DNA of 64,000 bases, from the IMG/VR virus record IMGVR_UViG_3300034061_005995, positions 1 to 64,000 of that record, one strand, 5' to 3'. The position numbers and the translations under genes were made by a program. The notes beneath the pieces were generated by a model. It was not told the origin of the DNA. It worked only from the letters and a program-made list of their open reading frames with translations, and made no database searches. This stretch comes from a virus. Below are positions 8,143-29,894 of the stretch, one piece after another (the first letter of the stretch is position 1; every line of letters starts with the position of its first letter).

Positions 8143-10908
8143 ATGATATACCAAAATATAAATCAATATAATTATCCTAAATGGTATTTGTTATTTAGAG
8201 ACAATATCATGGATTTTTGTTTAGCCTCAGATGAGAGAGATTATAATGAAGAAGTTATTTTTTCTGATAATATTATTGCATTAAATGACGGTACAAAATT
8301 ACCAATTAATTTTGATTTAAATAACCCAGAATCAAGTGAATTGTATGTACTTAGATATAATAATTATAATCCATATAATAATTTAATTTCCACAAATTAT
8401 TATAACCCTAAAAAAATTGATTTAACATGTCTTAGTTCACAAACAATATGTGATATTGGTTTAACAGGTACTGATAATGGTTTGGTAACAAATATGACAG
8501 GTGAAAGTATTACTGTTACTGAAGGTTTATTATCTAACAACGATAAATTTGATAGATTATCTTTTGATAGAAGGTTAAAATTACATCAAGTAACAGGATA
8601 TACATTATCACCAAATGTTAAATTCTCAGGATTATCTGGGGATATGTTATTCAATGTAGTTTCTGTACAGGAAGATAAGGTTGGTATATATCATGAATTG
8701 TATGGTGGATTTTACCAAGGATTTTATAAATTATTTGGATATGAGTATGAAATATTTCCAACAAGAGTGAATCGTGGTTGGACAGTTGAACTTTTATTAA
8801 AACCAAGATTAAAAAATAAATATACTCCTGCGATTGGACAAAATACCTTAAATGATATATATCCACAAAATAAAAATACGTTTTTTTATTTTGGAACAAG
8901 AGCTGAAAACAAATATTATCACCATGCTGATGGTTCGCCTGAAGAATTACCAGGATATAATCGAGTAACAAGTGGATTAACCACCTTAGAGACTTGTGCA
9001 TGTTGTAATCAAACAATTACAAATTCACGTTGTATTTACGTATACCCCCCAAAATCAAATAATGATATTCATGACCCACATTTAAATTATTCATGCAGCA
9101 GTTGTGGTGAAAAATTACAAGTTACTGAAAATAAATCATATTTACCTTGTAAATGTGGTTGTGATGACCCGTCTTATCCAAATTGTGGATGGGAATGTCG
9201 AGAACATTATTGTTTAACAGCAATTACAACAACCACAACAACTTTAAGTGGTGATTGTCAATCTTGTGATTATTGTGAAACTTGTTCAAAAAATGGTTCA
9301 ATACAATCTACTTGTGAATTAGACCCACTATTTGATTCAATGTCAAATGCTATATCTTTTAAACTATGTGGGGACCCTAAAAATCCACAAATAGGTATTA
9401 AAATTTTAAGGTTTACTGGAGATTGTGTTACTACAGGTACTTGTACAACAGGAATTACTTATGTTACTGGTTATACTATACAAGAATTATGTACACCAAA
9501 TTCAATATATGATATATGTGAAACAAAGTTTCCACCATTTATTAATAATGAGCATTGGGTGCAATTAAATTTTGTTTGGTCAAGAAATTATTACCTTGAA
9601 GAATGCGATTTATTTTATAAAGGTGGTTTAGGTTTAATTACAAGAATCGAATTTTTACAATCACTTGCAAATAATTCAATAAGTTTAATCTCACCAGAAA
9701 TTTCAAGAGGTTGTGAATCTGATGAAAAAATTGAGCTTGTAGAATTAAATGAAAAATGGTTAAATGAAAAAGATTTTAGAAATGGTACATTAAAGATTTA
9801 TGTTAATGGGAAATTATTTCACACTTTTTATAATATTGAAGAAATTATTCCAAGAGGTTTAAATACTGATAAAGAAAAACAAATTGGTGTACCTTTTAAC
9901 ATTTCTTGGGGTGGTGGTACGCAAGGATTGCATAATCATTTAATTTTTACAGGAATACCTGAAAGTATAAGTGGTATTACATACCAACAAGACCCTGAAT
10001 TATTTCCTGAAAATATTTTAAGTGCAACAACATTTTCCGCCTTAAGTACAAATATTCTTATTGAACAAAATTTTGCAGGAACTTTTGAAGGTGCAATATC
10101 ACAATTTAGAATGTATACCGAACCATTAATGGCTGATGAAATAAAACATAATTATTTAATATTAAAAGATAAATTCGATTTACTTGATTATGATTGCCCA
10201 AATTGTGAAACTGTTGTAACAACCACAACAACAACTCCAATAATTACACCAACACCAACACCAATTGTACCACAATGTTTTGCATATGTTGTTGCAGAGC
10301 CTCAAGATAGTTTGAACTCATTAACTAATTTAGGTTCTTATATGTATTATCAGGCTGATGGTATTACACCAGATGTTAATGTTGATTGGTATGGATTTGA
10401 CAATTCTGGTTCATGGGCTGACCCAAATTCTGAAAATTATTCATATATTCTATCAAAATATATTTCATATAGCGGATTTTCACAATCAATTGGAAATTTT
10501 GTATCACCCCAATTAGTTAAAGGTGCAATAAACCAAACAAATAATATAATATTTGATAAATTTGGTTGTCCAACTGCAAAACATGATTTTGAAACTATTG
10601 AGATTAATCCAAATTTATTTAATACTGATATTCAATATTTATATACAATTTGGATTCCAACAACTTGTGTTGGTGGGCCAATTAGCAACGTAACTTTAGA
10701 AATTGGTTATAATTCTACTCCATGTTCATTTGACACGTTCGCAATTCCTGACCCAGTAATATCATTAAAACCGATAACAGTTCAAGGAAATGCTGCAATA
10801 CCTGATGGTGATTATGTTGTATTGTATTGTTCAAGTACAACATTATTGCCAATATCTTTACCTTCAAATAATATAATTTATTTTAAAGGTATTAACATAA
10901 TTAATTAA
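8143..10908 (+). CDS. Large tail adhesin with Cys-rich module, LamG-like domain and duplicated C-terminal domain
   Basis: A 921-residue protein. Residues 285-385 are a Cys-rich module (CACCNQTITNSRC, CSSCGEKL, PCKCGCDDP) with zinc-ribbon-like CxxC pairs. Residues 445-680 look like a concanavalin/LamG beta sandwich, with HWVQLNFVWSRNYY, GTLKIYVNGKLFHTF and GAISQFRMYTEPLMADEIKHNY, the standard end of the fold. A Thr/Pro linker (TTTTTTPIITPTPTP) at about 695-710 joins a final ~210-residue domain that is duplicated in the next gene. Thr-rich linker, carbohydrate-binding fold and position before the fibre gene suggest receptor binding on the virion. The start follows a divergent promoter-like pair. 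Confidence 0.75.
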   Translation: MIYQNINQYNYPKWYLLFRDNIMDFCLASDERDYNEEVIFSDNIIALNDGTKLPINFDLNNPESSELYVLRYNNYNPYNNLISTNYYNPKKIDLTCLSSQTICDIGLTGTDNGLVTNMTGESITVTEGLLSNNDKFDRLSFDRRLKLHQVTGYTLSPNVKFSGLSGDMLFNVVSVQEDKVGIYHELYGGFYQGFYKLFGYEYEIFPTRVNRGWTVELLLKPRLKNKYTPAIGQNTLNDIYPQNKNTFFYFGTRAENKYYHHADGSPEELPGYNRVTSGLTTLETCACCNQTITNSRCIYVYPPKSNNDIHDPHLNYSCSSCGEKLQVTENKSYLPCKCGCDDPSYPNCGWECREHYCLTAITTTTTTLSGDCQSCDYCETCSKNGSIQSTCELDPLFDSMSNAISFKLCGDPKNPQIGIKILRFTGDCVTTGTCTTGITYVTGYTIQELCTPNSIYDICETKFPPFINNEHWVQLNFVWSRNYYLEECDLFYKGGLGLITRIEFLQSLANNSISLISPEISRGCESDEKIELVELNEKWLNEKDFRNGTLKIYVNGKLFHTFYNIEEIIPRGLNTDKEKQIGVPFNISWGGGTQGLHNHLIFTGIPESISGITYQQDPELFPENILSATTFSALSTNILIEQNFAGTFEGAISQFRMYTEPLMADEIKHNYLILKDKFDLLDYDCPNCETVVTTTTTTPIITPTPTPIVPQCFAYVVAEPQDSLNSLTNLGSYMYYQADGITPDVNVDWYGFDNSGSWADPNSENYSYILSKYISYSGFSQSIGNFVSPQLVKGAINQTNNIIFDKFGCPTAKHDFETIEINPNLFNTDIQYLYTIWIPTTCVGGPISNVTLEIGYNSTPCSFDTFAIPDPVISLKPITVQGNAAIPDGDYVVLYCSSTTLLPISLPSNNIIYFKGINIIN
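10276..10405 (+). repeat. Dispersed repeat, copy 1 (matches 11381-11510)
   Basis: About 130 bases encoding the start of the C-terminal domain (CFAYVVAEPQDSLNSL onwards) are almost identical in DNA to the same part of the next gene, with only a few substitutions. Beyond this block the two domains continue homologous but clearly diverged, as expected after recent local recombination or gene conversion. Confidence 0.8.
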
Positions 10909-10915
10909 AATTAAT

Positions 10916-12010
10916 ATGGATTTTTATATTAAAAAAAATGCGACATTACCAGTAATAAAAATGCTTATAGTAAGAGATGGTAGGAGCGATTATCATAATT
11001 TTGATAATTTATCAAACTCTGAAATATTATTTAGCATGTTTGATATTGAAAAAAAAATAATAAAAACTGCATCGAGACCTACACAAATTGTTATTCAAAA
11101 AAATTCTAAAGGTTATGATGAATATTGGGTTCAATACGCTTTCAAAGCGAGAGATACTAAAACCCCTGGAGTTTTTAAAGCACAATTTTCAATTAAAAAT
11201 TCAACAGGTGAAGTAATATTACCATTAAGTGAGGATGTATTTATATACGTACAAGATAGTTTTGTAAATCTTGAAGAATGCTGTAGAAAAATTCAAATTG
11301 TTAGTCCAACACCGACTTTAACACCAACAGCAACTCCGACACCAACACCTACGCCAACTCCGACACTTATACCATCAACATGTTTTGCATATGTTGTTGC
11401 AGAGCCTCAAGATAGTTTGAACTCATTAACTAATTTAGGTTCTTACATGTATTATGAGGCTGATGGCATTACACCAGATGTTAATGTTGATTGGTATGGA
11501 TTTGGTAACTCTGGTTCATGGGCTGACCCAACATCAATTAATTATTCATATACTTTATCGAAATATATTTCATATAGCGGATTTTCACAATCAGTTGGAA
11601 ATTTTGTATCGCCACAATTAATTAAAGGTGGGATAAATCAAAATGGGTATATTATTGATGATGCTTTTGGTTGTTCAGTAAATCAATATTCATTTGGCTC
11701 AATTGAAGTACCAATTTCATTAGTAAATCCAAATATTCAATATTTATATACAATATGGATTCCTTTAGATTGTGTAAATAATGAAATGGAAAACATGATT
11801 TTAGAAATTGGATATAATTCATCCCCTTGCTCATTTGATGCTGTTGCAACACCTGACCCAATAATATCACAAACAAATGTTACTGTAAGCAATAGTTCAA
11901 CAATACCAACTGGTGAATATAGAGTATTATATTGTTCAAATACTGCACTATTACCTATAACAATTCCAACAAATAATAATATTTATTTCAAAGGGGTTAA
12001 TAAAACATAA
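10916..12010 (+). CDS. BppU-like N-terminal domain fused to a duplicated adhesin domain
   Basis: A 364-residue protein. Residues 1-120 (FYIKKNATLPVIKMLIVRDG onward, with ILFSMFD) resemble the N-terminal domain of siphophage baseplate upper proteins (BppU_N), which docks receptor-binding parts onto the baseplate; the same domain stands alone at 29912-30271. A Thr/Pro linker (TPTLTPTATPTPTPTPTPT) spans about 128-150. Residues 155-364 repeat the C-terminal domain of the preceding protein. It looks like an adaptor carrying an exchangeable adhesin head. The BppU link is an inference from a short motif; the two paralogies are seen directly. Confidence 0.7.
   Translation: MDFYIKKNATLPVIKMLIVRDGRSDYHNFDNLSNSEILFSMFDIEKKIIKTASRPTQIVIQKNSKGYDEYWVQYAFKARDTKTPGVFKAQFSIKNSTGEVILPLSEDVFIYVQDSFVNLEECCRKIQIVSPTPTLTPTATPTPTPTPTPTLIPSTCFAYVVAEPQDSLNSLTNLGSYMYYEADGITPDVNVDWYGFGNSGSWADPTSINYSYTLSKYISYSGFSQSVGNFVSPQLIKGGINQNGYIIDDAFGCSVNQYSFGSIEVPISLVNPNIQYLYTIWIPLDCVNNEMENMILEIGYNSSPCSFDAVATPDPIISQTNVTVSNSSTIPTGEYRVLYCSNTALLPITIPTNNNIYFKGVNKT
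11381..11510 (+). repeat. Dispersed repeat, copy 2 (matches 10276-10405)
   Basis: Second copy of the near-identical DNA block at the start of the shared C-terminal domain, immediately after the Thr/Pro linker. The pair is separated by 1105 bases in direct orientation, so recombination between copies could swap or delete the intervening BppU-like module. Confidence 0.8.
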
Positions 12011-12034: not shown

Positions 12035-15000
12035 ATGCCGTTTATTTATAAAAATCCATTAACATCAACGCAATTATCAAGTGCGTTTTCTGTACCAAGA
12101 ACTTCTGTACAGGCAACAAATTTTAGTAATTCTACCGTTGGTGGTTGGCAAGAATTTGCTAATATTAGTGATTTAGATTTATTTTTCTCAGGTACTGGTT
12201 TACAACAATGGTCAAATGTTAAATTACCTATTAATATAACAATTGGTTCTGGAGTTTTTAATCCAACGTTTATAACTTTAAATTCTGATAATTTTTCTTC
12301 AGGTAGAAGAAAAATCGGTATGGCGGTATATGTTCATGAAACAGATTCAATTTATCAATACCAAATTGATAATTATGAAACCTTATGGACTGCAGCAACT
12401 GCAAGTACTGGTACAGTAACAATAAATTCATATGATACTGTTGTTAGAAATAACTCACCTGCTGGACAAACATTTATAAATTCTTGGACCGCAAATACTA
12501 TTGAAGGTATTAATGGTGTAACACGTGAAAACGCAAGGTGGAGATTACTTGCACAAAATTGTTGCTTAACTGGCGGAACATATTTTTCAGCAACAAGTAC
12601 TTTAGAATTATATCAACAAAACGGTGAAGTAATAACGATTACTGGAATTACTGCTGGAAGCGGAGGAAGTCCACTAACTGTTGAAGATAGCCTTACAACT
12701 GTAAATAATGTTAATAAAATTATTATTAGTGGTGCTACAGTAATAAATCAAGGACCTGGTGAAGTTTTAATATTTTTTAATACAAGTGGAAATGGCACCT
12801 CTGGTACATCTGGAAGTAGTGGAATTTCAGGTTCAAGTGGAAGTTCGGGTACGTCAGGAAGTTCAGGCACATCGGGTAGTAGTGGAGTTTCTGGCTCAAG
12901 TGGAAGCTCAGGAACATCGGGTAGTAGTGGAGTTTCTGGCTCAAGTGGAAGCTCAGGAACATCGGGTAATAGTGGAACTTCAGGTTCAAGTGGAAGTTCA
13001 GGCACATCGGGTAGTAGTGGAGTTTCTGGCTCAAGTGGAAGCTCAGGAACATCGGGTAATAGTGGAACTTCAGGTTCAAGTGGAAGTTCTGGAACATCTG
13101 GAAACAGTGGAACTTCAGGTTCAAGTGGGAGTAGTGGAAGTTCAGGCACATCGGGTAGTAGTGGAGTTTCAGGTTCAAGTGGAAGTTCTGGCACATCAGG
13201 AAGTAGCGGTACTTCAGGTTCAAGTGGAAGTTCTGGCACATCAGGAAGTAGCGGTACTTCAGGTTCAAGCGGAAGCTCTGGAAGTAGCGGCTCAAATGGT
13301 AGCTCAGGGACTTCTGGAAGTAGTGGTTTAAGTGGAAGTTCAGGAACGTCTGGAAGCAGTGGAAGTTCTGGAACATCAGGAATTAGCGGAACTTCTGGTG
13401 TTAATGGTTCTTCAGGAACTTCAGGTAGTAGTGGAACATCAGGTGTTTCACCAATTTATGTTGGTAGTTCCAATAACTGTATTTCATTAAGTTCATTAAC
13501 AATTAGTTCAGCAATAACATTAACAGCAAATACTGGTTTAGCATACACTATAGGTCAAAGTATATTAGTAGCAAATAGTCCAACAAGTAATTTTAAAGGT
13601 TCTGTTAGCTCTTATAATTCAATCACTGGAGAATTGACTTTAATAGTTACTGAAATTACTGGTACTGGAACATTTTGTACTTGGCAATTAAATTTGGCTG
13701 GGGCTGTCGGTTCAAATGGTAGCTCAGGAACATCTGGAAGTAGCGGTTCAAACGGTAGCTCTGGAAGTAGTGGAAGCTCAGGAACCTCTGGAAGTAGTGG
13801 AAGTTCAGGTTCAAGCGGAAGCTCAGGAACCTCTGGAAGTAGCGGAATTTCAGGGTCAAGTGGAAGTTCGGGTTCAAGTGGAACTTCAGGAAGTAGTGGT
13901 TCAAATGGTAGCTCAGGAACATCTGGAAGTAGTGGAAGTTCAGGTTCAAGCGGAAGCTCAGGAACCTCTGGAAGTAGTGGAAGTTCAGGTTCAAGCGGAA
14001 GCTCAGGAACCTCTGGAAGTAGCGGAATTTCAGGGTCAAGTGGAAGTTCGGGTTCAAGTGGAACTTCAGGAAGTAGTGGTTCAAATGGTAGCTCAGGAAG
14101 TTCTGGCACATCAGGAAGTAGTGGAACTTCTGGAACAAGCGGTGAAAATGGCATATCTGCAGGTAGAGTATATTATTTCAATTTAAGTGAAAATAGCGAT
14201 GTCGTTGGTTATAAAATTTTATCGGAAAATCCTACAACAGCCACAACACAAACAGTATTTAAAGTAGTAAGTGGTAATACTCAAAATGTTCTAATTGAAC
14301 AATTTATTACCGATGAATTGGGCTTTAACATCATTCCAGCTGGTGTTCAGAGATTCTTTTTATATTATTTAAAAGAGTCTCAAAACACAAATATGCAAGC
14401 ATATTTGACATTAGAATTAGCTAATAGTGGTGGAACAAGTTATGGTGTTGTATTAACAGCTAATACCGAAACAATTGGTTGGAATTTTGGAAATCCTGCG
14501 GAAACTGTTATTGAAATAGTATTTTCAACAACAAATATTAATCCTACTGATAGGTTGATATGCAAATTATATGTTAATAATTTAGATAGTACTGATAGAG
14601 ATACAACATTTTATACCGAAAATGGTACATATTCTTTTGTAATCACTTCTGTTGGTCAAGTTGCTGGAACATCTGGAAGTAGCGGAAGTTCTGGAACATC
14701 TGGAAACAGTGGAACTTCAGGTTCAAGTGGGAGTAGTGGAAGTTCAGGCACATCGGGTAGTAGTGGAGTTTCAGGTTCAAGTGGAAGTTCTGGCACATCA
14801 GGAAGTAGCGGTACTTCAGGTTCAAGCGGAAGTTCTGGCACATCAGGAAGTAGCGGTACTTCAGGTTCAAGCGGAAGCTCTGGTATATCAGGAAGTAGCG
14901 GTACTTCAGGTTCAAGCGGAAGCTCTGGTATATCAATAACTGGTGGTACTTACAATATACCAACAGCATCATTAACATTATTTAGTTCAGATAACTCACA

Positions 15001-16792: not shown

Positions 16793-16793
16793 T

Positions 16794-17654: not shown

Positions 17655-17655
17655 T

Positions 17656-18510
17656 ATGCTTAGATTAAGTTCATATACAGAATATTATAATACATTATCA
17701 GATTATAATACATTTAATACATATTCATCTCGAACAGGTCAAATTGGTAACAGAATGATTGATGGTTTTTATTCACAAACATATCCAAGTGGAACAGCAC
17801 CTACGGTTTATAATTCAATAACTCCAAGAACAATGACAAAAAATGATGTTGGAGCAATACCACTACCTTTAATTTCTAACGGTGGATTTTTGAATATTTT
17901 AGGATATCAAAATTCAACAACCGCAATATCAAATGTCCATATTGTATTTGATAGGTTAGTTGAAGTTGGTGCTATTAGCGCAAATAGTACTTCATTACAG
18001 ACTTTTAGCACTGGTACATTACCAAGATATCAAAATGATAAAAATATTGTTTGTATTGTTGAACCTGGAACAAATTTAGCTTCTGGGACTCAACAAAGAG
18101 CAACACTTACGTATACAAACCAAGATGGTGTATCAGGTAGAACTGGATTTTGTTCAATAGGTGGTGGTGACTTTGGAACAACACATAGTGCAAGATTTCT
18201 TAGATTGCAAGCAGGAGATAGTGGAGTTAGGTCTGTTGAAAGTTTACAACTTGATGGTACAATTTTAGCAACTGCAAATAGAATTAATATTGTATTAGCA
18301 AAATGTCATGGAATGTTTGTTAGTTCAGGTGTATTAATGAATAATACATCAGCATTTGCAAATTTAATAAATGGCAATATGGTTGGTGGATTAACTAATA
18401 TTCATAGCGATGCCTGTTTATTTTTTGTTAGAGCGATATTTAACGTAACTGGTTTTAATGACGGTACAATCATGGGTAATGTTATAATTAAAGAAAATTA
18501 TGAGATATAA
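17656..18510 (+). CDS. Tail/fibre-associated protein, paralogue family A, copy 3
   Basis: A 284-residue divergent member: a different N-terminus (MLRLSSYTEYYNTLSDYNTF) but the same core with FDRLVEVGAISANSTSLQ, YTNQDGVSGRTGFCSIG and AGDSGVRSVESLQLDG. It starts two bases after the TAA of copy 2. The series of three non-identical, equally long paralogues suggests an old duplication with subunit specialisation. Function unknown. Confidence 0.68.
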   Translation: MLRLSSYTEYYNTLSDYNTFNTYSSRTGQIGNRMIDGFYSQTYPSGTAPTVYNSITPRTMTKNDVGAIPLPLISNGGFLNILGYQNSTTAISNVHIVFDRLVEVGAISANSTSLQTFSTGTLPRYQNDKNIVCIVEPGTNLASGTQQRATLTYTNQDGVSGRTGFCSIGGGDFGTTHSARFLRLQAGDSGVRSVESLQLDGTILATANRINIVLAKCHGMFVSSGVLMNNTSAFANLINGNMVGGLTNIHSDACLFFVRAIFNVTGFNDGTIMGNVIIKENYEI

Positions 18511-21286: not shown

Positions 21287-22219
21287 ATGGAGATTATGAG
21301 AAAATTGGCATTAATTTCTTCATTTTGTGATACACAATTAAAAAAAGAAATTTTGTTAAAAAACTTGAGTATTCTTAAATCTTTAGGTGTTGATACTTTA
21401 TTAATAAGTCCTTTAACATTAGATGAATCAATTATAAATAATTGTGATTTTTATTTTAATACTAAAGAGAATCCTATACTTACATGGCCTCAAAGAATTT
21501 ATGACCATTGGCTAATAACTAAAGATGATTCAGGTAAAAATATAAAATTACATAGAGGGTTACCAGATTATGGCTGGGCGGCAATGTATCAATTAAAAAA
21601 ATTGATACAGATTGGGTTAAGTTTCGAATATGATTTATATTACCCGATGATATATGATTTAAATATAAATGATTTTGTAGTCAATGAAATTAATTCAAAC
21701 ACCCAAGATATATTTTATAGAAGAGTTGACCCAAAAAATAATACAAATTTTTGGTCAGCAACTTTACATTTCATGTCATTAACAAGGAATAAATTAGAAA
21801 TAATTGAAAAATTAATAACTTTAGATAGTTACTTGCAAAAAAGCGATTTTCCTGAAAAACATGCAGAAACTTGGGCTAAAAATTTAAATATAACATTATC
21901 TGAAAATGCTGTATCTGACAGCATATTTTATTGGGAAAACATTAATTTTTTTAACTATTCAGTAGATAATGATTACTGTTTATTTTTTAATAAAAACGAT
22001 GATATTTTTAATAAGTTATGTTTATTTGTATATAATGTAAATAAAAATTGTGATATTAAAATATCAATAAATAATAAAATATATAATTATTCAAATTTTA
22101 TACAGACTGATTACAATTTTAATGATGTTAATAATTTTGAAATTATAAAAAATAACATTTCAATAAACTATACAAAAGAATATCAAAATTCAATAAGAAA
22201 TTTAATATATTATGAATGA
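21287..22219 (+). CDS. Uncharacterised protein of glycosyltransferase island
   Basis: A 310-residue protein. The start KLALISSFCDTQLKKEILLKN and VDTLLISPLTLDESIINNCDF look like the first Rossmann strands of a glycosyltransferase, followed by KENPILTWPQRIYDHW, but I see no clear DxD or donor site. The C-terminal 80 residues are Asn-rich beta strands. A second ATG at 21296 has GGAG five bases upstream and gives MRKLALISS; it may be the true start. It overlaps the next gene by eight bases. A sugar-related role is inferred mainly from context. Confidence 0.55.
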   Translation: MEIMRKLALISSFCDTQLKKEILLKNLSILKSLGVDTLLISPLTLDESIINNCDFYFNTKENPILTWPQRIYDHWLITKDDSGKNIKLHRGLPDYGWAAMYQLKKLIQIGLSFEYDLYYPMIYDLNINDFVVNEINSNTQDIFYRRVDPKNNTNFWSATLHFMSLTRNKLEIIEKLITLDSYLQKSDFPEKHAETWAKNLNITLSENAVSDSIFYWENINFFNYSVDNDYCLFFNKNDDIFNKLCLFVYNVNKNCDIKISINNKIYNYSNFIQTDYNFNDVNNFEIIKNNISINYTKEYQNSIRNLIYYE

Positions 22220-23189
22220 TTTAATCTTTGTAACCGCACAACCAGATGTTGAATATTTTCACTGGCAATGTGAAATATACGGATATAATTTTACAAAAAT
22301 GGGTATTAAAAAAAATAATATTCATATGATTTTTGCATTAGTTAATGGCGCAACTGAACCTTCTGAAGGTGTAAAATATTTAAAAAACATTGGTTATAAT
22401 GTACATTATTATATTGATAATAGAGATTCTAAACATTACATTCCAAGTATAAAACCTTATTTAATATCAAAATGGTTGGAAGAATTTCCAGAATATGGTA
22501 AATTGTTTTTTTTACACGATGCTGATATCATATTTAGAGTACTACCTGATTTAAGCAAATATCTTAAAGATGATATTTGTTATATGTCCGATACCAGAAG
22601 TTATATCGGATACAATTATATTTCAGATTGTTGTGGTAGATATGAAGCACAACACCCAACATCTGAAAAATTACAATTACTAAATGAAATGTGTAATGTT
22701 ATTGGATTAGATATTGATTGCGTTAGAAATAACCAAGATAATTCTGGTGGTGGGCAATATATCATTAAAAAAACATCTGCAGAGGATTGGAATAAAATAT
22801 ATAGAGATTCTAATACTTTATATAATACAATGTTGGATTATCAAAATAGATTTCCAATAAATCCTGGACAAATACAATTTTGGACTGCAGAAATGTGGTC
22901 TCTTCTATGGAATTTATGGTGTTTTGGTAAAGATACAAAATTAATTAGCGAATTAGATTTTTCATGGGCAACTGATAATATTGAAACTTATGAAAAAAAA
23001 CCAATATTACATATGGCTGGAGTTACTGATAATTTGAAAGGTGTTAAATTTTATAAAGGTGATTTTATCGCAACGAATCCCATTAAAAAGTTAGAAGAAG
23101 ATATTAACTATTTTAACTATATTGATATAAATAGTTCAACAACAAAATATATTGAAATTATGAAAGAAATTTTATTATCTAAAAATTAA
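22212..23189 (+). CDS. GT-A-type glycosyltransferase, possibly peptidyl-Ser/Hyp transferase-like
   Basis: A 325-residue protein. DIIFVTAQPD-like start with EYFHWQCEIYGYNF, a metal-binding DxD at residues 103-105 (FLHDADIIF), and PGQIQFWTAEMWSLLWNLW near 218-236. The combination of an aromatic W-Q segment near residue 18, a central DAD and a Trp-rich EM segment recalls eukaryotic peptidyl-serine galactosyltransferases and hydroxyproline arabinosyltransferases. This is a weak, by-eye resemblance. A GT-A fold is likely; substrate is not. Located in the plus-strand glycosyltransferase island just before a Thr/Pro-rich adhesin. Confidence 0.55.
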   Translation: MNDLIFVTAQPDVEYFHWQCEIYGYNFTKMGIKKNNIHMIFALVNGATEPSEGVKYLKNIGYNVHYYIDNRDSKHYIPSIKPYLISKWLEEFPEYGKLFFLHDADIIFRVLPDLSKYLKDDICYMSDTRSYIGYNYISDCCGRYEAQHPTSEKLQLLNEMCNVIGLDIDCVRNNQDNSGGGQYIIKKTSAEDWNKIYRDSNTLYNTMLDYQNRFPINPGQIQFWTAEMWSLLWNLWCFGKDTKLISELDFSWATDNIETYEKKPILHMAGVTDNLKGVKFYKGDFIATNPIKKLEEDINYFNYIDINSSTTKYIEIMKEILLSKN

Positions 23190-23197
23190 GAATAGAA

Positions 23198-23205
23198 TAT
23201 TTATA
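23198..23205 (+). promoter_or_regulatory. TATTTATA motif upstream of LamG adhesin
   Basis: TATTTATA followed by TTAAAT, ending seven bases before the ATG at 23213. Same octamer and orientation as at other transcription-unit starts. Promoter function inferred. Confidence 0.35.
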
Positions 23206-23212
23206 TTAAATT

Positions 23213-25678
23213 ATGGCGTGTTATAGTGGCTTAACCAATGCACCAAATTGGTATTATCAAGATTGTAATGGAAGTATTAGAAGTGGTAGTACTGTAGGTC
23301 TAACAGTATGTTATGATGATACAACAATAGTACCTGTTAATATTACAACATCTATGGTATCATGTCTTAGTAACGAATATAGTTTTAGTGCATGCTGTTA
23401 TCCATATGATGTTTTTGGAATAATTAATATTCCAACAAGTTTAAATATTGGTGATACATATTATGTTGAAGTTGATGGATTTTCGGGTTGTACAATTGTT
23501 GGAAATGATGTATATATTGTTCAATATTCTGAATCATCAATTACAGGGCCTTTTACAGATTGTGAAGATTGTGCAACAAGCATTCCATATCCATGTGCAA
23601 CGCCAACTCCTACACCAACACCAACATTGACACCAACTCCTACACCAACTCCTACTGTAACCCCTACACAAACGCCAACTCCTACGCCAACTCCTACGGG
23701 ATTTTGTGGAATTTTAGATTATTGTTTGGATACTGATGGAATATCTGTATATGACGGTAATTATACTTATGCTGGTACATATAATTCATTAAATTATTAT
23801 ACTGGTGGAACTTCACCTATAGGATATATTTTTAATGATGGTACAAAATGGTGTTTATCAAATTCTTTAGGCGGGTCTTGTATTTTATTTGGTAAAACCC
23901 CATGTTATAATGTTTGTCCAGATATTTGTGATGAATTAATACCTGGAGTATGTGTAACTTCAACTACAACAACTTCAATATGTGATACTGTAAATTTTGA
24001 AGCTTTATTTAATTGTAATGTTACACCAACTCCAACAACTACACCAACTCCAACTCCAACATCATCAGTTGGAACATGTTTTTCAGCAATTACTGACACT
24101 CCTAATTGGAGTTATTATGATTGTTGCGGCAATTTAATAACTGGTACAACAATAGGTTTAGATATTTGTTATAATAGTTCATTACCATTTTCTGGTATTG
24201 CAACATATCCAGATGTTTGTGTTGTTAATTGCCCAACTCCAACACCAACACCAACTCCAACAAGTATTTGCACATTATCGTCAATATCTTTAAGCGCAAC
24301 AACATTACCAACATCTACTCCAACAGCAACACCAACTCCTACACCAACAGTTGTTAGAAATCAATGTTTTTCTGGTGATGTTGCATTTGTATTATTTGAA
24401 GAAGCATTTTCATGCCCTGAAACTAAAAAATTAATTAGTTGTTCAAATAATGAAATTTACTATGTTAATGAACCTTTAATATTGGGCTCAGAAGTTGTTC
24501 AGATTAATCAAACATTCTTAGGTTTAATTAATGAACAATTTGATTGTTATAGATATTTAGGATTAGAAAAAATATCAAGTAATGGTATTCTATTAAATAT
24601 TTATGATATTTTTGGATATGACTGTAATACATGTATTTTAACTACAACAACAACATTACCCCCACCAACAGCTACACCAACGGTAACGCCAACAGCTACA
24701 CCAACGGTAACGCCAACAGCTACACCAACAGCTACACCAACAGCTACACCAACGGCAACGCCAACAGCTACACCAACAGCTACACCAACAGCTACACCAA
24801 CGGCAACGCCAACAGCTACACCAACAGCTACACCAACGGCAACGCCTACGCCAACAGCAACAGTTTCATGTTTACCTGCAGCATCTTTAGTTAGTGATGG
24901 CCTTAGAGCTTATTTAGACCCAGCAATATGTAGCGGTTTTACTTTAGCGACATATACTCTTGAAGATGCTACAGGAAACTTTAGCGGTAACACTTTTGAT
25001 GTTAGTCCACAATTTAAAACAACAACTGGAAACCAATCATATAGTGCATATACAAGCGGTGGAACCTATAGTACTATAGGTAGTGGTTCGATAACAATTG
25101 AACCATCTAAATTATATTTTTATGGTAGAAGCGGCTCAGGTGTTAATTTCTCGGCAACATCTTTCTCAATTTGGTTCTATCCATTTAGTGCAGTTACTTC
25201 AGGAACATCAGCCCAAAGTCTTATTCAACCAAGATTATCTTATGATACAAATGGAATAAACTATTTAGGTATCGGTGCTGCTGTTGGGGCACTTAATAAT
25301 GAGATTTTAGGTTTAATTTCAACAGTTGCAAATACTAATAGACGTACAGCAGTAGATTCATCAGGATTTACCCAATTTAGTGCCAACACTTGGTATAATA
25401 TCACATGTAACTGGAATTCTGGCGATTCAAGGTATGATATTTATATAAATAACGTTCAACAAAATGTTTTTGCTCCAGCGGCTGGTCACATACCAGTAAT
25501 TGAAGGTAATGCGTTAATCTTAGGTGCGGTTGTCGGATATGCTGGTGACGTAAACGCTCAACAAGCAAGAGCATTCTTTAATGGTAATATTGGTGAATTG
25601 CATATTTATACAAGAGCATTGACACCGACAGAATTAACAGATAACTACAATGCTTTAAAATCGAGATACGGTTATTAA
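23213..25678 (+). CDS. Thr/Pro-rich modular adhesin with C-terminal LamG domain
   Basis: An 821-residue protein built of small Cys-containing modules joined by Thr/Pro linkers (TPTPTPTLTPTPTPTPTVTP near 133-160 and others). Modules CYSGLTNAPNWYYQDCNG (residue 3) and CFSAITDTPNWSYYDCCG (about 288) are internal duplicates. A long ATPT minisatellite linker covers about 487-550. Residues 555-821 form a concanavalin/LamG-type domain: FSIWFYPFSA, NTWYNITCNWNSGDSRYDIYINNVQ, and GNIGELHIYTRALTPTELTDNYNAL. Probably a surface-exposed receptor-binding or host-glycan-binding protein, with linkers suited to O-glycosylation. Confidence 0.75.
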   Translation: MACYSGLTNAPNWYYQDCNGSIRSGSTVGLTVCYDDTTIVPVNITTSMVSCLSNEYSFSACCYPYDVFGIINIPTSLNIGDTYYVEVDGFSGCTIVGNDVYIVQYSESSITGPFTDCEDCATSIPYPCATPTPTPTPTLTPTPTPTPTVTPTQTPTPTPTPTGFCGILDYCLDTDGISVYDGNYTYAGTYNSLNYYTGGTSPIGYIFNDGTKWCLSNSLGGSCILFGKTPCYNVCPDICDELIPGVCVTSTTTTSICDTVNFEALFNCNVTPTPTTTPTPTPTSSVGTCFSAITDTPNWSYYDCCGNLITGTTIGLDICYNSSLPFSGIATYPDVCVVNCPTPTPTPTPTSICTLSSISLSATTLPTSTPTATPTPTPTVVRNQCFSGDVAFVLFEEAFSCPETKKLISCSNNEIYYVNEPLILGSEVVQINQTFLGLINEQFDCYRYLGLEKISSNGILLNIYDIFGYDCNTCILTTTTTLPPPTATPTVTPTATPTVTPTATPTATPTATPTATPTATPTATPTATPTATPTATPTATPTATPTPTATVSCLPAASLVSDGLRAYLDPAICSGFTLATYTLEDATGNFSGNTFDVSPQFKTTTGNQSYSAYTSGGTYSTIGSGSITIEPSKLYFYGRSGSGVNFSATSFSIWFYPFSAVTSGTSAQSLIQPRLSYDTNGINYLGIGAAVGALNNEILGLISTVANTNRRTAVDSSGFTQFSANTWYNITCNWNSGDSRYDIYINNVQQNVFAPAAGHIPVIEGNALILGAVVGYAGDVNAQQARAFFNGNIGELHIYTRALTPTELTDNYNALKSRYGY
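24667..24861 (+). repeat. Ala-Thr-Pro-Thr minisatellite
   Basis: About 195 bases of 12-base units (GCTACACCAACA and GCAACGCCAACG variants) encode (Ala-Thr-Pro-Thr)n. Variant units appear in an ordered, repeated pattern, which points to expansion by slippage or unequal exchange. It forms the stalk before the LamG domain. Confidence 0.88.
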
Positions 25679-25720
25679 AATATTTATTTAATTTTTTTTT
25701 TCATTATTTTAATAGTAATA

Positions 25721-26971
25721 ATGAAAATTTTTATCCAAATTGCCAGTTATCGTGACCCTCAATTATTACAAACAATTAAAAGTTGTTTAGAAAATTCAAG
25801 ATACCCTGAGAATTTAGTATTTTCAATTGCAAGGCAATATCATAATGATGATACCTTTGACGATTTATCAGAATATTATAATGATGATAGATTCAAAATA
25901 TTGAACATCCCGCATGAAGAATCTCTTGGTGTTTGTTGGGCAAGAAATCTAACACAACAATTATATAATGGTGAAGAATATACATTACAAATTGATTCAC
26001 ATATGAGATTTTCCAAAGATTGGGATATCACATTAATTGAAATGATTCAACAATTAAAAAATAATGGGTATTTAAAACCATTATTGACAGGATATATGCC
26101 ATCATTTGACCCAGATAATGACCCAAATAGTCGTATTCAAACACCCTGGAGAATGGTTTTTGACAGATTTATCCCTGAAGGTGCGGTATTTTTTTTACCT
26201 GAAGTAATTCCAGGATATTTAAATTTAACTGAACCTATACATTCAAGATTTTATTCTGCACATTTTTGTTTTACAATTGGAGATTTTGTTAAAGAAGTTC
26301 AACATGACCCATTAATGTATTTTCATGGTGAAGAAATATCAATTGCTGCAAGAGCTTACACACATGGTTATGATTTATTTCATCCACATAAAGTTGTATT
26401 ATGGCACGAATATACAAGAAAAAATCGTGTTAAACAATGGGACGATGACCCAAAATGGACGGAAAAGAATGATAAATCACATTTAAGGAATAGAAAACTC
26501 TTTAGCATGGATGGTGAAATGTATAATCCTGCCGAATTTGGAATTTATGGATTTGGAAATATAAGAACTTTACGAGATTACGAGATATATAGTGGAATAC
26601 ATTTTGGTAAACGAGCTGTTCAACAATATACTTTAGATAAAAAATATCCACCCAATCCTTATAACTTTAAAAACGTATCTGAATGGGAAGATTCATTCTC
26701 AAGAATTTTTAAACACTGTATAGATTTACATAAAGATTTTGTAAATTTTGATGATTATGAATTTTGGGTTGTAGCATATCATGATGAGCAAGATAATACA
26801 ATATTTAGACAAGATTGTGGTATTAGTGAAATTAAACAATTAAAATCCTCAAATGAAGAATACTATAAAATTTGGAGAGAATTTCAAACTACTAAACAAC
26901 CAAGAAAATGGGTTGTTTGGCCATATTCAAAATCTAAAGGGTGGTGTGATAAAATAGAAAAAATCTTATGA
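25721..26971 (+). CDS. Skp1-type N-acetylglucosaminyltransferase family protein (GlcNAc, PF11397-like)
   Basis: A 416-residue protein with the hallmarks of the family typified by Dictyostelium Gnt1, which adds GlcNAc to a hydroxyproline of Skp1: IFIQIASYRDPQLLQTIKSC at the start, SLGVCWARNLTQQLYNGEEYTLQIDSHMRF around 70-100 (metal-binding DSH in place of DxD), WDITLIEMIQQL, and a later HGEEISIAARAYTHGYDLFHPHK. Family membership is strong by eye. In the cytoplasm of an infected cell it would transfer GlcNAc from UDP-GlcNAc to an acceptor, plausibly a Thr/Pro-rich phage protein. No prolyl hydroxylase is visible in the window. Starts a run of five overlapping genes. Confidence 0.82.
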   Translation: MKIFIQIASYRDPQLLQTIKSCLENSRYPENLVFSIARQYHNDDTFDDLSEYYNDDRFKILNIPHEESLGVCWARNLTQQLYNGEEYTLQIDSHMRFSKDWDITLIEMIQQLKNNGYLKPLLTGYMPSFDPDNDPNSRIQTPWRMVFDRFIPEGAVFFLPEVIPGYLNLTEPIHSRFYSAHFCFTIGDFVKEVQHDPLMYFHGEEISIAARAYTHGYDLFHPHKVVLWHEYTRKNRVKQWDDDPKWTEKNDKSHLRNRKLFSMDGEMYNPAEFGIYGFGNIRTLRDYEIYSGIHFGKRAVQQYTLDKKYPPNPYNFKNVSEWEDSFSRIFKHCIDLHKDFVNFDDYEFWVVAYHDEQDNTIFRQDCGISEIKQLKSSNEEYYKIWREFQTTKQPRKWVVWPYSKSKGWCDKIEKIL

Positions 26972-27540
26972 AGTTAATCGTTGTTATTTGTCATTATCGT
27001 GAAAATTTAAATTGGCTTAAAGATTTAAAACACCCTTATATTGTATATAATAAAAATCCAAATAATAATCATTTATTTGAGAATAATTTACCAAATGTTG
27101 GTTTTGATACTGTTGTTTATTTAAAATATATTATTGATAACTATAATAATTTACCTGATTATATTTGTTTCTCTCAAGATAACCCATTTTATCATTGTTC
27201 AACAATAATTGATAAAATTAACAATTTTAACTTTGATTCAGATTTTGTACCTTTAGGTATTTCATATGTTAGGGACCAAAAAGATATTTTAGAGAAAACT
27301 ATTAAATATGCTGAAGAAAATGGTATTAAATTAAATATTCCAATTAAATTTATAAATTCTGCACAATGTATTGTATCAAAAAAACTAATACTTAAGAATA
27401 CTAAAGAGTTTTACGAAAAAATAAAAGAAACTCTACCAAAAAATGAAATAATAAACCAAACTAATTATATAGTCGAATATTTATGGCCAACAATTTTAGG
27501 CTTTAATGAAGAATTAAAAATTAGTTTTTATAATTGTTAA
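26968..27540 (+). CDS. DUF3431-like protein
   Basis: A 190-residue protein overlapping the preceding gene by four bases (ATGA). LIVVICHYRENLNWLKDL, YIVYNKN, and LPNVGFDTVVYLKYIIDNYNNLPDYICFSQDNPF match the pattern of DUF3431, a family found next to glycosyltransferases and thought to be GT-like. The end (VEYLWPTILGF) also fits. It likely acts in the same glycan pathway as its neighbours; the reaction is unknown. Confidence 0.65.
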   Translation: MKLIVVICHYRENLNWLKDLKHPYIVYNKNPNNNHLFENNLPNVGFDTVVYLKYIIDNYNNLPDYICFSQDNPFYHCSTIIDKINNFNFDSDFVPLGISYVRDQKDILEKTIKYAEENGIKLNIPIKFINSAQCIVSKKLILKNTKEFYEKIKETLPKNEIINQTNYIVEYLWPTILGFNEELKISFYNC

Positions 27541-28355
27541 TGATGAAAAAAGCTCTAATAGGATTATCCAATAATATTTTGACTAATATTAATAAAATTA
27601 AAGTATGGTCAAAAAGTTTTAAACAATATTCAGATGGTGACATAATATTATTATGTGCAAATACTAATAAATTAGAAATGGATTTATGTAAGTCTCTTGG
27701 AATAATTACAGTTCCAGTTTTAGTTAACGATATAAATTATATTAATCATAAAAGATTATTAATTACCAAAGAAGTATTAGAAACTTATAAGTATGACGTA
27801 TGTATAATAACTGATGTTTTTGATGTTGTATTTCAATCGGACCCATTTAAAAAATTAGATTTTGAAAATTTTGATATTTTTGTTAGCGGTGAGGGCGTAA
27901 ATGTTAATCAAGAACCTTGGAATTCAGATAATATTAATAAACTTTTTCCACAACATTTTAATGCTTGTGTAAATACTGAAATTATTAATTCTGGAGTAAT
28001 TGCTGGTAAACGCTTATCACTAATTAAATTACTTGATATGATGTATAATTTATGTCAAGAAAGTAATAATAATCATAATATTAAAGACCAAGCCGCATTA
28101 ATTGTTTTAGTATCATTAAACTTAATACCCAATTTAAAAATATTTAATTTGGATGATGGATGGGCAATGCATTGTGCTGTTGCAGGTCCAACACAATTTT
28201 TTGATGCTTGGGGATTTAGAAATAATTTGAAATATGGAATACCCCAATTAATTAATAAAACTATATGTACTAAAACTGGCGATGTTTTTGACATTGTTCA
28301 TCAATTTAATCGTATAGATAAATGGAATGAAATTTTAACAAATGAATACATTTAA
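27540..28355 (+). CDS. Putative GT-A glycosyltransferase
   Basis: A 271-residue protein. After KKALIGLSNNILTNINKIKVW it shows the donor-site segment YDVCIITDVFDVVFQSDPF (acidic D-x-x-D like DxD) around residue 87-105 and IINSGVIAGKRLSLIKLLDMM, which is typical of GT8/GT77-like or DUF-type nucleotide-diphospho-sugar transferases, plus a final DIVHQFNR. The ATG at 27540 overlaps the TAA of the preceding gene by one base; a second ATG follows at once. Enzymatic role inferred from fold motifs. Confidence 0.6.
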   Translation: MMKKALIGLSNNILTNINKIKVWSKSFKQYSDGDIILLCANTNKLEMDLCKSLGIITVPVLVNDINYINHKRLLITKEVLETYKYDVCIITDVFDVVFQSDPFKKLDFENFDIFVSGEGVNVNQEPWNSDNINKLFPQHFNACVNTEIINSGVIAGKRLSLIKLLDMMYNLCQESNNNHNIKDQAALIVLVSLNLIPNLKIFNLDDGWAMHCAVAGPTQFFDAWGFRNNLKYGIPQLINKTICTKTGDVFDIVHQFNRIDKWNEILTNEYI

Positions 28356-29106
28356 AACTTGTAAAGTTATTTGTTTTACACCACAAACATATAACTCATA
28401 TTTTGGGTGGTGGAAATCATTATTAAATACTTCAAATACATTTTTAATTGTTGATAACAGCTCAAATGCAAAAATTGATTATTCTGGGTTTATATATAAT
28501 GAAGATGATATTCGAAAAAATTTTAATTTTAAAGAAACCGTTAATAGAAATCATTATTGGAATGCACAAGGAAATAAAAATATAATTTGGTTTTATGCCT
28601 ATTTAAGAATGTTAAATTATTATATAAATAATAACAAATATGATTATTATTGGTTTTTTGATGATGATGTTTATTGTAACAATTGGGAACATTTCTTAAA
28701 TTCTTTTGAAGACGATGATTCAGACTTTTTATCATATTTTTTATTTAAGAATTTAAATGTAGAATCTTATCCTGAAATCCCAAAAGTTGATAATAAAATG
28801 TTTTCTGGAAATTTATGGTTTCAAAGATTTCCATCACATGGTGATAAGCTTGAACCTAACACTAATGATTTATTTGGTTCTTTTTTTCCAATTGTAAGAT
28901 TTTCTAAGAGAGCGTTAGAAAAATTAAAAGAACTAACATTAAACGATTTTCATGGATATGGTGAAGGGTTTGTTCCAACAACGTTAGCCAAATATGGTTA
29001 TAAAATTAATACAATATTCAATAACGAAAATAAATCAAAGTATTTCGATACTAATAAAATTAATATTACACATAAAAATATAAAAATTAATTGGGAATGG
29101 CTTTAA
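28342..29106 (+). CDS. Putative GT-A glycosyltransferase with DDD motif
   Basis: A 254-residue protein, overlapping the previous gene by 14 bases. The strand YYWFFDDDVYCNNWEHFL (about 109-126) is a clear metal-binding acidic motif after a GT-A beta strand, and YGEGFVPTTLAKYGYKI at about 213-230 resembles a catalytic-loop region following the acceptor site. Many Asn/Phe/Tyr residues reflect the low GC content. The family is not identified; a glycosyltransferase role is likely. Confidence 0.6.
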   Translation: MNTFKTCKVICFTPQTYNSYFGWWKSLLNTSNTFLIVDNSSNAKIDYSGFIYNEDDIRKNFNFKETVNRNHYWNAQGNKNIIWFYAYLRMLNYYINNNKYDYYWFFDDDVYCNNWEHFLNSFEDDDSDFLSYFLFKNLNVESYPEIPKVDNKMFSGNLWFQRFPSHGDKLEPNTNDLFGSFFPIVRFSKRALEKLKELTLNDFHGYGEGFVPTTLAKYGYKINTIFNNENKSKYFDTNKINITHKNIKINWEWL

Positions 29107-29894
29107 ATAATCCTGTAATAGTAACTGCTCTATTTGATATTGGTAGAGAAACTTGGAATAATTATACAATGTCATATCATACATATTGTTGGTGGGCAAG
29201 AAACACTTTATCATTAGACTCAAACATTGTTGTATATACTGAAGAAAAATTCTTAACTGAGCTTAAGAATTATAGACGCGAATTTGACCCGAATTTAGAA
29301 AAGACAATTTTTATTACAAAAAAAATAACAGAATTAGATTGTTATACAATTTATTATGAAAAATTAAAAACATTAATGGAATCTGAAAAATTTATTAATA
29401 AAATAAGTTTTAAGAATGTTCCAGAAATGTGTCAACCACTATATAACATTATTATGTTTAACAAAGTATTCTTTTTAAAAGATACTATTGATAATAAATA
29501 TTTTAATAATGATGTTGTAATATGGGCCGATGCTGGAGGATTAAGGGATGATATTAATGTATATAAAAATACTACTTGGCCAAAAATTACAAAATTAAAT
29601 CTATTAGATAAAAATGTTGTAACAGTATTTTCACACAACCTTGATGTAAATATTACAGATTTTGAATATCATGCATTATCACAAATTAGAAATATCCAGG
29701 GTACTTGTTTTTTTGTTCCGTCTCATTTGATTGATATTTTAATAACTGTTTTAAATCAAACTATTAATGACGCAATAAATAATTCATATATCGGAAGTGA
29801 TGAAAAAATATTTGATATTTGCTATACCAAGCATAAGTCATTGTTTAATTTAATAAAAAGTAATTGGAGAGAATATTTTAATTATTTTAAATAA
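29097..29894 (+). CDS. HtrL/YibB-like protein
   Basis: A 265-residue protein. PVIVTALFDIGRETWNNYTM, the SLDSNIVVYTEE strand, and the later NDVVIWADAGGLRDD fit the HtrL_YibB family, which in enterobacteria lies in the LPS core locus and is predicted to be a GT-A-like transferase. The ATG at 29097 is used; an upstream TTG is unlikely. The start overlaps the previous gene by 10 bases. Last gene of the glycosyltransferase island; a TATTTAT motif and a BppU-like gene follow. Confidence 0.65.
   Translation: MALNNPVIVTALFDIGRETWNNYTMSYHTYCWWARNTLSLDSNIVVYTEEKFLTELKNYRREFDPNLEKTIFITKKITELDCYTIYYEKLKTLMESEKFINKISFKNVPEMCQPLYNIIMFNKVFFLKDTIDNKYFNNDVVIWADAGGLRDDINVYKNTTWPKITKLNLLDKNVVTVFSHNLDVNITDFEYHALSQIRNIQGTCFFVPSHLIDILITVLNQTINDAINNSYIGSDEKIFDICYTKHKSLFNLIKSNWREYFNYFK

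Follow-up and report, generated by a model that had tools for sequence, protein, structure and literature searches.

TibC is a proven protein O-heptosyltransferase. With AAH it belongs to TIGR04414, and its acceptors are autotransporter stalks. In mycobacteriophages, capsid and tail-tube subunits are reportedly glycosylated at their C-termini and the transferases are phage-encoded, as Freeman et al. are said to have described in 2023. In Mimivirus, collagen-like proteins are encoded with hydroxylase and glycosyltransferase enzymes (L230, R699, R655; PMC9546862, in part). The transferases of large phages are usually read as anti-restriction tools or as tools that change host LPS. Among the matches listed for the open literature, there was nothing on a phage TibC, and none that joined phage transferases to glycosylated collagen-like tail fibres.

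The window is the whole 64,000-nucleotide stretch analysed, positions 1 to 64,000 of IMG/VR virus record IMGVR_UViG_3300034061_005995. Every open reading frame (ORF) named in an earlier note on this DNA was found at its coordinates. That note counted about eleven transferase-type genes, eight of them in 19-30 kb. Both counts hold for candidates (starting at 179, 1183, 3974, 18959, 21287, 22212, 25721, 26968, 27534, 28342 and 29091), with transferase identity unproven for some. The block 21287-29894 is tightly packed on the + strand, its neighbouring genes being -16 to +42 bases apart, and has the 23213 adhesin inside it. The island itself is real. A nucleotide search of it against 50,697 phage records gave no match, and when the 57024 tail protein was used to look for core relatives, only the same population (L060) was recovered. 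The features are as follows:

179-5188, - strand: second glycosyltransferase (GT) cluster, with 179-940 weakly GT9-like, 1183-2697 carrying two GT2 and 3974-5188 weakly GT4
8143-10908, + strand: conserved adhesin with short T6/TP linkers only; left boundary of the module, with 10916-12010
10916-12010, + strand: linker protein, at the left boundary with the adhesin
12035-15907, + strand: proline-free collagen-like fibre, 1290 aa, (Gly-X-Ser/Thr)n; PF01391, tail-fibre PHROGs
15926-16792, 16782-17654 and 17656-18510, + strand: three paralogous proteins downstream of the fibre, tail-type by position
18688-18978, + strand: small ORF conserved with the block; homologue in record G098 (8e-10)
18959-21247, - strand: GT4-TibC fusion, 762 aa; PF00534, PF01075, TIGR04414, PDB 4rap
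21287-22219, + strand: predicted GT-A glycosyltransferase with a C-terminal beta domain; AF2 model, Foldseek
22212-23189, + strand: predicted GT-A (GT8-like) transferase, phrog_4417; AF2 model, D103/D105
23213-25678, + strand: Thr/Pro-rich adhesin with a concanavalin-like domain; TP runs, Laminin_G_3 (1.3e-9)
25721-26971, + strand: PF11397 (GlcNAc/Skp1 Gnt1-type) transferase; 7.8e-67, over cut-off
26968-27540, + strand: DUF3431 protein, putative transferase only; PF11913 (2.2e-15)
27534-28355, + strand: putative GT, weakly like the lysyl-hydroxylase GT domain; PF25342 (0.0085, under cut-off)
28342-29106, + strand: putative GT, unproven; no family over cut-off
29091-29894, + strand: HtrL_YibB-family protein, putative transferase only; PF09612 (1.3e-22)
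29912-30271, + strand: small domain, paralogous to the N-terminus of 10916-12010; right boundary of the module

The fibre 12035-15907 has 159 G-X-[ST] triplets, including nine runs of at least four, all proline-free. Where it is densest, over 60 residues, Ser+Thr make up 65%; the median is 20% over 53 selected ORFs of at least 100 aa in the whole 67,868-base record. The fibre matches the Pfam Collagen model (PF01391, 9.2e-64) and tail-fibre PHROGs. The adhesin 23213-25678 carries (TP)n linkers and reaches a Ser+Thr maximum of 52%. The Thr-linker sheath (40375-43716) also reaches 52%, owing to TTTTTT linkers. Of the three fibre or adhesin genes that had been called dense in Ser/Thr or Thr/Pro, 12035 and 23213 are so; the adhesin 8143-10908, with two T6 runs, one TPTPTP and a maximum of 28%, is not. 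Homologues of this last adhesin are found in G018, G019, G050 and G080.

The fusion protein 18959-21247 matches the GT4 and GT9 models of Pfam over cut-off (PF00534, 4.6e-14; PF01075, 2e-8). Against TIGR04414 it scores 191 bits (3e-56), below the NCBIfam cut-off of 200, which is passed in 14/25 and 10/18 other repeat records. The match to TibC in the PDB (4rap/4rb4) has an E of 9.5e-35. In the 4rap alignment, with residue positions counted by hand, the catalytic Asp110 and the sugar-binding Thr226, Lys230 and Trp305 of TibC (roles from PMC4358343, in part) are all kept, as are the four iron-finger Cys. The catalytic Asp and C313, C316, C332 and C344 are invariant across 16 phage proteins. In place of Arg286, an adenine contact that TibC needs, the window protein has Val, and the position varies by eye among other phage members. 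Given this change, ADP-heptose may not be the donor; Pro300 is changed as well, and the donor may thus differ from that of TibC. We propose that 18959-21247 is a protein O-glycosyltransferase for Gly-X-Ser/Thr repeats, with 12035-15907 as its candidate acceptor. Since the repeats of the window are proline-free and rich in Ser/Thr, O-linkage to Ser/Thr would be the expected chemistry.

TibC-type genes are present in 25/43 phage records with such repeats versus 0/29 controls. In the first set, TIGR04414 is found in 14/25 repeat records versus 0/25 controls matched roughly by length, not by lineage (Fisher 9.5e-6; this and the other p-values are optimistic because the repeat records are partly related rather than independent, with 12/16 in one loose cluster at 20% shared genes). 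The additional set gives 11/18 versus 0/4. GT4 is found in 17/25 repeat records versus 1/25 controls. Neither GT2 (PF00535; 8/25 versus 2/25, p 0.074) nor PF11397 (2/25 versus 0/25, p 0.49) differs significantly. None of the four transferase models searched is found in 7/25 repeat records. By eye, the arrays of G032, G038 and G047, which may be fragments, have no transferase among the neighbouring genes. In the reverse test, on the best 80 of at least 583 viral TibC loci, arrays are present in 13/80 stretches and absent from 67/80, compared with presence in 1/66 shorter control stretches (p 0.0033); high Ser/Thr figures from antisense frames were left out of this comparison.

Bacterial TibC loci show the same association. 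Among 80 loci kept, a Gly-X-Ser/Thr protein is nearby in 12/21 first-listed loci versus 0/59 others, a split drawn after the list was seen, and 3 of the 12 were counted without individual inspection. All three bacterial Gly-X-Ser/Thr proteins tested match PF01391, one of them just under cut-off. In the group of 59, 3/4 large neighbours tested are AIDA autotransporter stalks.

A different enzyme accompanies the Thr/Pro linkers. No family was matched in the Pfam scan of 21287 and 22212, and for both proteins the structure prediction that the note had called for gives a GT-A fold. The model of 22212-23189 (AF2 pLDDT 94.0) matches glycogenin (Z 15.7 over 227 residues), LgtC (Z 14.2), the Skp1 galactosyltransferase (14.1) and GlyE (13.8), and D103 and D105 of its DXD motif are invariant. 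It is thus predicted to be a GT-A/GT8-like transferase. Its sole PDB sequence match (E 0.0077) was taken as chance. For 21287-22219 (AF2 pLDDT 92.7), the top Foldseek match is LH3 (7.8e-4), and the comparison with VIA gives Z 14.1 over 172 residues. Homologues of 21287 are found in 24/80 viral TibC loci (best 80 of at least 583). An apparent relative at the same position in G098 (331 aa) has 17% identity and no phmmer match and was therefore not counted.

The adhesin 23213-25678 starts 23 bases past 22212-23189, and the pair is also present in G037. In 29 of 45 non-redundant loci, a T5- or TP-rich gene directly follows the 22212-type transferase, and in 38 such a gene is found among the two that follow. 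The baseline is 218/916 ORFs of those loci and 1/516 control ORFs. Four further records of 22212-type phages carry TIGR04414 in two cases and not in the other two. On this linkage, 22212-23189 is proposed to be the partner of the Thr/Pro adhesin, which would be its acceptor.

The remaining candidates are of mixed standing. The match of 25721-26971 to PF11397 is strong (226.6 bits versus a cut-off of 21), with a homologue in G098 (1e-197) and no relative in the PDB sequence search. In eukaryotes, the acceptor of this enzyme type is a hydroxyproline of Skp1. PF11397 was rejected as a marker of Gly-X-Ser/Thr arrays, as 0/53 PF11397 stretches have one; outside these stretches, G033, G035 and G098 have both. 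The proteins 29091 (HtrL_YibB) and 26968 (DUF3431) are over the cut-offs of Pfam families whose function is labelled unknown, and homologues of 29091 lie near PF11397 genes in G010, G011, G017, G033 and G098. The PLOD-GT match of 27534 is sub-threshold, and its homologues are in L020 and G043. For 28342, the sole Pfam signal is a sub-threshold RecT match, and a homologue is found in L020 with the order conserved. In the outer cluster, 1183 is over the cut-off for GT2, and 179 and 3974 have weak family matches.

The block is partly conserved. In G098, 9/15 block genes recur, eight of them in window order and orientation; the three paralogues 15926-18510, which match no family in the Pfam scan, have homologues there in identical order, and the 23213 homologues are elsewhere in the block. 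Four window proteins, all from this module, are shared with G037 (E 1e-5) in mirror-image order. G050 was left unscored, its record ending just inside the island. In G030, the TibC gene and a fibre gene (5293 aa) share 8 bases at the start of the latter. The cultured Microcystis phage Mel-JY01 has, consecutively, a repeat fibre, a structural gene, a short ORF and a GT4-TibC fusion. Collagen-type enzymes occur in related modules: 2OG-Fe oxygenases are found between fibre and TibC in G033, G037 and G043, and G043 also encodes a GT4-GT25-lysyl-hydroxylase-like fusion. Relatives that keep transferases and lack a Ser/Thr-rich fibre, the contrary case named in the earlier note, do occur for some of the enzymes: the fragments G005 and G017 have PF11397 and no Ser/Thr-dense ORF, and in G018, which has no such fibre, 3974 and 1183 have relatives. 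One matched set of eleven transferases is therefore not supported.

The best explanation of the island, and a probable one, is that it modifies the fibres. The same pairing of enzyme and fibre in other phages and in some bacteria suggests that such viruses decorate their own fibres with sugars. The core of the original proposal, that island enzymes act on repeat fibres of the phage itself, is supported; the single eleven-enzyme set and the dense 8143 substrate are not. The gene identities, the conserved catalytic residues, the recurrent pairing and the partly conserved block are observed; the sugar transfer itself, with its acceptor residue, sugar, order of steps and reason, is inferred. The sugars may serve one of the benefits offered in the earlier note, namely stiffening, masking or lectin binding. 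In the infected cell, the Gly-X-Ser/Thr fibre and the Thr/Pro adhesin would be made along with dedicated transferases. Of the two halves of 18959-21247, the TibC-like one would place the first sugar on Ser/Thr of the repeats, in the way that TibC modifies the repeats of TibA, and the GT4 half would extend it. Likewise, 22212-23189 may glycosylate the Thr/Pro linkers encoded directly downstream, and 21287, the PF11397 protein, 27534, YibB and others may build or cap the glycan.

GT2 and GT4 families are common in envelope synthesis, and G018, as noted, keeps two outer GT genes without repeat fibres. The transferases could alter the LPS O-chain or capsule of the host during infection, blocking superinfection or changing the receptor, and their place beside the fibres would reflect a shared part in host recognition. 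The pelagimyophage glycosyltransferases that lie in a tail-fibre hypervariable region are read in this way (PMC7029224, in part), and for those of freshwater actinophages it is among the two roles proposed (PMC10202952, in part). However, this explanation is unlikely: the twenty Pfam-scanned proteins (island genes of at least 119 aa, the sheath and the three GT genes of the outer cluster) include no flippase or GtrA-type membrane partner, the hydropathy maxima of the eleven candidates are low (0.48-1.71), the key enzyme has its homologues in a family with protein acceptors, and its first-listed bacterial relatives are often near collagen-like proteins.

Fibres and transferases might instead share a recombination hotspot, their linkage being positional and not functional. 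In G018, the gene content of the homologous region is quite different, TibC was not found in 18/43 repeat records (which may be fragments), and the records are partly related. Proximity of TibC and array within records was rejected as support for the pairing, as in 14 records the two are not significantly closer than random positions (combined p 0.28). Hitchhiking, however, does not predict the same-repeat pairing in bacterial contigs, the link of each of two different enzymes to a separate kind of repeat, or the conserved order in G098 and G037, and we regard it as quite unlikely. T4-type glucosylation of phage DNA is a role often assigned to phage transferases (PMC12619734, in part), and the phage encodes a dUTPase. 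This role is very improbable here, with a thymidylate synthase/hydroxymethylase homologue in 0/6 records of the phage and its relatives, which may be fragments. To our knowledge, no DNA glucosyltransferases belong to the TibC, PF11397 or GT8-like fold families.

Beyond fibre modification in this phage, a general system of collagen-type fibre glycosylation is quite possible, and we put it forward tentatively. In phages and some bacteria, TibC-clade enzymes would run along the Gly-Ser/Thr-Ser arrays, and Thr/Pro linkers would have a GT8-like enzyme of their own; in some cases 2OG-Fe hydroxylases, lysyl hydroxylase, GT25 and sulfotransferases would take part. Sugars would replace proline or hydroxyproline as the stabiliser of proline-free collagen-like rods. 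Should the transferases act on fibres, a large number of phage enzymes that now lack an assignment would gain a substrate, and glycosylated virions would be common among aquatic phages. There would be consequences for the cohesion of proline-free collagen-like rods, for host range and adsorption, and for the encounters of phages with antibodies and proteases. For the TibC-type enzymes of bacteria, another class of acceptor is also suggested. The cultured Mel-JY01 makes the claim testable now.

Compared with known systems, the island genes scanned differ from prophage gtr serotype-conversion clusters in having no membrane flippase or membrane transferase families. Large aquatic pelagimyophages likewise have transferases among tail-fibre genes, but these are read as LPS modification, and PMC7029224, in the part available, describes no enzyme-repeat pairing. 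Mimivirus resembles the repeat-fibre phages in encoding collagen-like proteins with modifying enzymes, and the G043 fusion matches lysyl hydroxylase, an enzyme not found among the window proteins scanned; the window repeats also differ from that system in their lack of proline and richness in Ser/Thr. As in mycobacteriophages, the transferases are phage-encoded; virion proteins are reportedly glycosylated there, whereas here glycosylation is proposed from the genes, with long repeat fibres as candidate acceptors and TibC-type and GT-A enzymes. TibC/AAH shares with the window protein a homologous catalytic domain, the catalytic Asp, three of four sugar-binding residues, the four-Cys iron finger and, as proposed here, a repetitive surface protein as acceptor. 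The Pfam-scanned island genes have a collagen-like fibre instead of an autotransporter domain. Unlike TibC/AAH with its autotransporter stalks, the window enzyme is phage-encoded, fused to a GT4 and accompanied by collagen-like Gly-X-Ser/Thr arrays.

The full IMG/VR virus record is 67,868 bases long and encodes a contractile sheath. A second phage record, G020 (91,523 bases), belongs to the same population as the window (99.8% over 19 kb) and reaches further right. The island is composed of the following features.

8143-10908: conserved adhesin, left bound of the island
12035-15907: collagen-like fibre without proline, inside the island
After 12035-15907: three paralogous proteins, inside the island
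18959-21247: minus strand, GT4-TibC fusion
Plus strand: packed block of seven transferase-type genes, enclosing the Thr/Pro-rich adhesin (23213-25678)
29912-30271: small conserved domain, right bound, ahead of DNA polymerase

The earlier note claimed dense repeats for three genes; the composition of the window ORFs agrees for 12035 and 23213 but not for 8143. Outside the island, the window encodes an iron/manganese superoxide dismutase (34928-35689; Sod_Fe_C, 1.9e-40). An endonuclease-like ORF amid the tail genes (47362-48939; sub-threshold match to REase_MTES_1575) is perhaps a mobile insertion. Six leucine-rich-repeat-like ORFs are tandem paralogues (43748-46574), and an array of the same type lies at both ends of G020, at assembly breaks; this array is possibly a recombining cassette.

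The gene 18959-21247 has family matches to GT4 and GT9. It matches TIGR04414 (hepto_Aah_TibC), the TibC protein O-heptosyltransferase family, at 3e-56 and 191 bits, slightly below the cut-off of 200, and aligns to the sequence of the TibC crystal structure at 9.5e-35. Residues of importance in TibC include Asp110, Thr226, Lys230, Trp305, Arg286 and the iron-finger cysteines, according to PMC4358343. With residue positions assigned by manual counting along this alignment, the window protein retains Asp110, Thr226, Lys230, Trp305 and the four iron-finger cysteines, and has Val in place of Arg286. Across the 16 phage proteins aligned, this Asp and these four Cys never vary.

Comparative sequence evidence argues strongly for a pairing of this enzyme with the Gly-X-Ser/Thr triplets of the fibre. 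The repeat DNA pattern occurs in at least 120 stretches of viral contigs, 80 of them among the matches listed. From these, 43 listed repeat contigs were compared with 29 control contigs drawn by two arbitrary 16-mers, all of at least 30 kb. Among 25 pairs of roughly matched length, TIGR04414 was found in 14 repeat records vs no control (p = 9.5e-6; p-values overstate the pairing because the phage records are mutually related, 12 of 16 falling in one loose cluster). The remaining records gave 11/18 vs 0/4. In the same 25 pairs, GT4 was present in 17 repeat records vs 1 control, GT2 in 8 vs 2, and PF11397 in 2 vs 0; seven repeat records matched none of these four models. One control, G070, bears the repeat itself and has no TibC, with a GT25 gene two genes behind the array gene. 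The array proteins of three records (G032, G038 and G047) are very large (1803-3767 aa), and no transferase was seen by eye among the neighbouring genes.

The reverse search used the best 80 of at least 583 viral TibC loci. Arrays of at least eight triplets were present in 13/80 stretches, probably too low a figure since arrays are frequently at contig ends, vs 1/66 shorter control stretches and 0/53 PF11397 stretches. Across 14 records, the median TibC-to-array distance was 6.8 kb vs 18.9 kb for random positions, a proximity that was not significant in the combined test (p = 0.28).

Individual phages carry related modules. In G030, a repeat fibre gene (5293 aa) begins within the TibC gene, the two sharing 8 bases. 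The cultured Microcystis phage Mel-JY01 has the TibC-fibre pair; its fibre lies at 635-3052 (+) within PP395634.1 1-3052 (L337), but the annotation covers most of it with two hypothetical proteins on the minus strand and puts a short plus-strand one at the end. A 735-kb uncultured phage has a GT4-TibC gene 3.7 kb from an array fibre, and a 636-kb one has no array fibre within 15 kb. A single block in G043 contains TibC, a 2OG-Fe oxygenase (1e-13), a GT4-GT25 fusion, and GPQ-type and Gly-Ser-Ser fibres. The fusion (G043:C1:99299-102309, L540/L541) joins GT4 and GT25 to a domain resembling procollagen lysyl hydroxylase; C-terminally it is similar to human LH3 (1.1e-26) and to a second procollagen lysyl hydroxylase (1.3e-25). 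A 2OG-Fe oxygenase also sits between fibre and TibC in G033 and G037. Sulfotransferase-like genes lie in or beside the fibre region (G018:C1:14265-18298, G018:C1:39722-40537, G046:C1:27659-29188), assigned by Pfam for G018 39722 and both G046 genes and by eye otherwise.

The block recurs in part elsewhere. G098 (190,552 bases) has homologues of 12035, 15926, 16782, 17656, 18688, 18959, 25721 and 29091 (HtrL_YibB family) in the order and orientation of the window, with 23213 homologues at both ends of its block. Of the fifteen window genes between 12035 and 29894, nine are thus represented. Its block has no recognisable 18500, 21287, 22212, 26968, 27534 or 28342. It adjoins structural genes that resemble, by eye, genes of the window phage's right arm in G020, so the block is probably at another site. 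G037 shares four proteins with the window, all of the module and in mirror order, and the locus L020 has relatives of PF11397, 27534, 28342 and 29091 ordered as in the window. Among close core relatives, G080 has both repeat fibre and TibC, neither was seen in G018 or G019, and G050 is cut off. Of the best 80 viral TibC loci (of at least 583), 24 encode a homologue of 21287; elsewhere among the 668 loci searched, only L418 does.

Bacterial loci and the second pair, 22212-23189 with adhesin 23213-25678, provide lines partly separate from the phage records. In the best 80 of 441 bacterial TibC loci, a Gly-X-Ser/Thr ORF of at least six triplets was present in 12 of the first 21, those of highest similarity, vs 0 of the other 59 (p = 4.9e-9, descriptive because the split was drawn after the list was seen). 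At eight or more triplets, nine of these 80 loci are array-positive, all within the first 21. One array-positive locus, L418, resembles a phage contig in a MAG. Eight bacterial loci looked at in detail (L425, L428, L429, L431, L433, L436, L437 and L438) are mainly from Gammaproteobacteria and Burkholderiales MAGs. In these, the distance between the TibC ORF and the nearest array ORF ranges from 105 to 985 bp, and several array proteins have, by eye, a lipoprotein-like start and an acidic tail. Three bacterial array proteins tested matched the Collagen model, one slightly under the cut-off. The Gly-Ser/Thr-Ser proteins of the eight loci are possibly a new surface-glycoprotein family. In the other 59, AIDA stalks were found in three of four large neighbours tested, of nine listed. 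A quickly built tree of 176 domains, which carries long-branch warnings, places the array-positive bacteria in scattered positions, with 9 changes over 12 rows.

For the second pair, the best 80 of 284 viral relatives of 22212-23189 were used. A Thr-Pro-rich ORF was present in 74/80 stretches vs 0/66 shorter control stretches, and an ORF with a Thr run (T5) in 77/80 vs 1/66. At 90% identity these form 45 clusters, taken with one member apiece. The gene right after the transferase is of either kind in 29/45, and one of the next two is in 38/45; the background in those loci is 218 of 916 ORFs.

The main rival is that the transferases act on the host envelope instead. The outer glycosyltransferase genes (179, 1183 and 3974) and PF11397, to which Pfam assigns 25721-26971, have no tie to Gly-X-Ser/Thr arrays. 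The transferase 22212-23189 matches no Pfam family; its predicted structure (pLDDT 94.0) has a GT-A fold near glycogenin, LgtC, UGGT, Skp1 galactosyltransferase and GlyE. The model of 21287-22219 is likewise GT-A (pLDDT 92.7), with LH3 as top Foldseek match (7.8e-4) and Z 14.1 against mannosylglycerate synthase. Such a common predicted fold does not demonstrate the acceptor of either enzyme. A role in DNA modification is unlikely, as thymidylate synthase was matched in none of six records searched.

Among the matches listed from an open literature library, none described a TibC-type enzyme in a phage or linked such enzymes to collagen-like fibres. Related systems have been described: glycosylated virions are known from mycobacteriophages (Freeman 2023, as cited in PMC12619734), moraphages have four core groups of glycosyltransferase (PMC12619734), pelagimyophages carry glycosyltransferases in tail-fibre islands (PMC7029224), and Mimivirus modifies its own collagens (PMC9546862).
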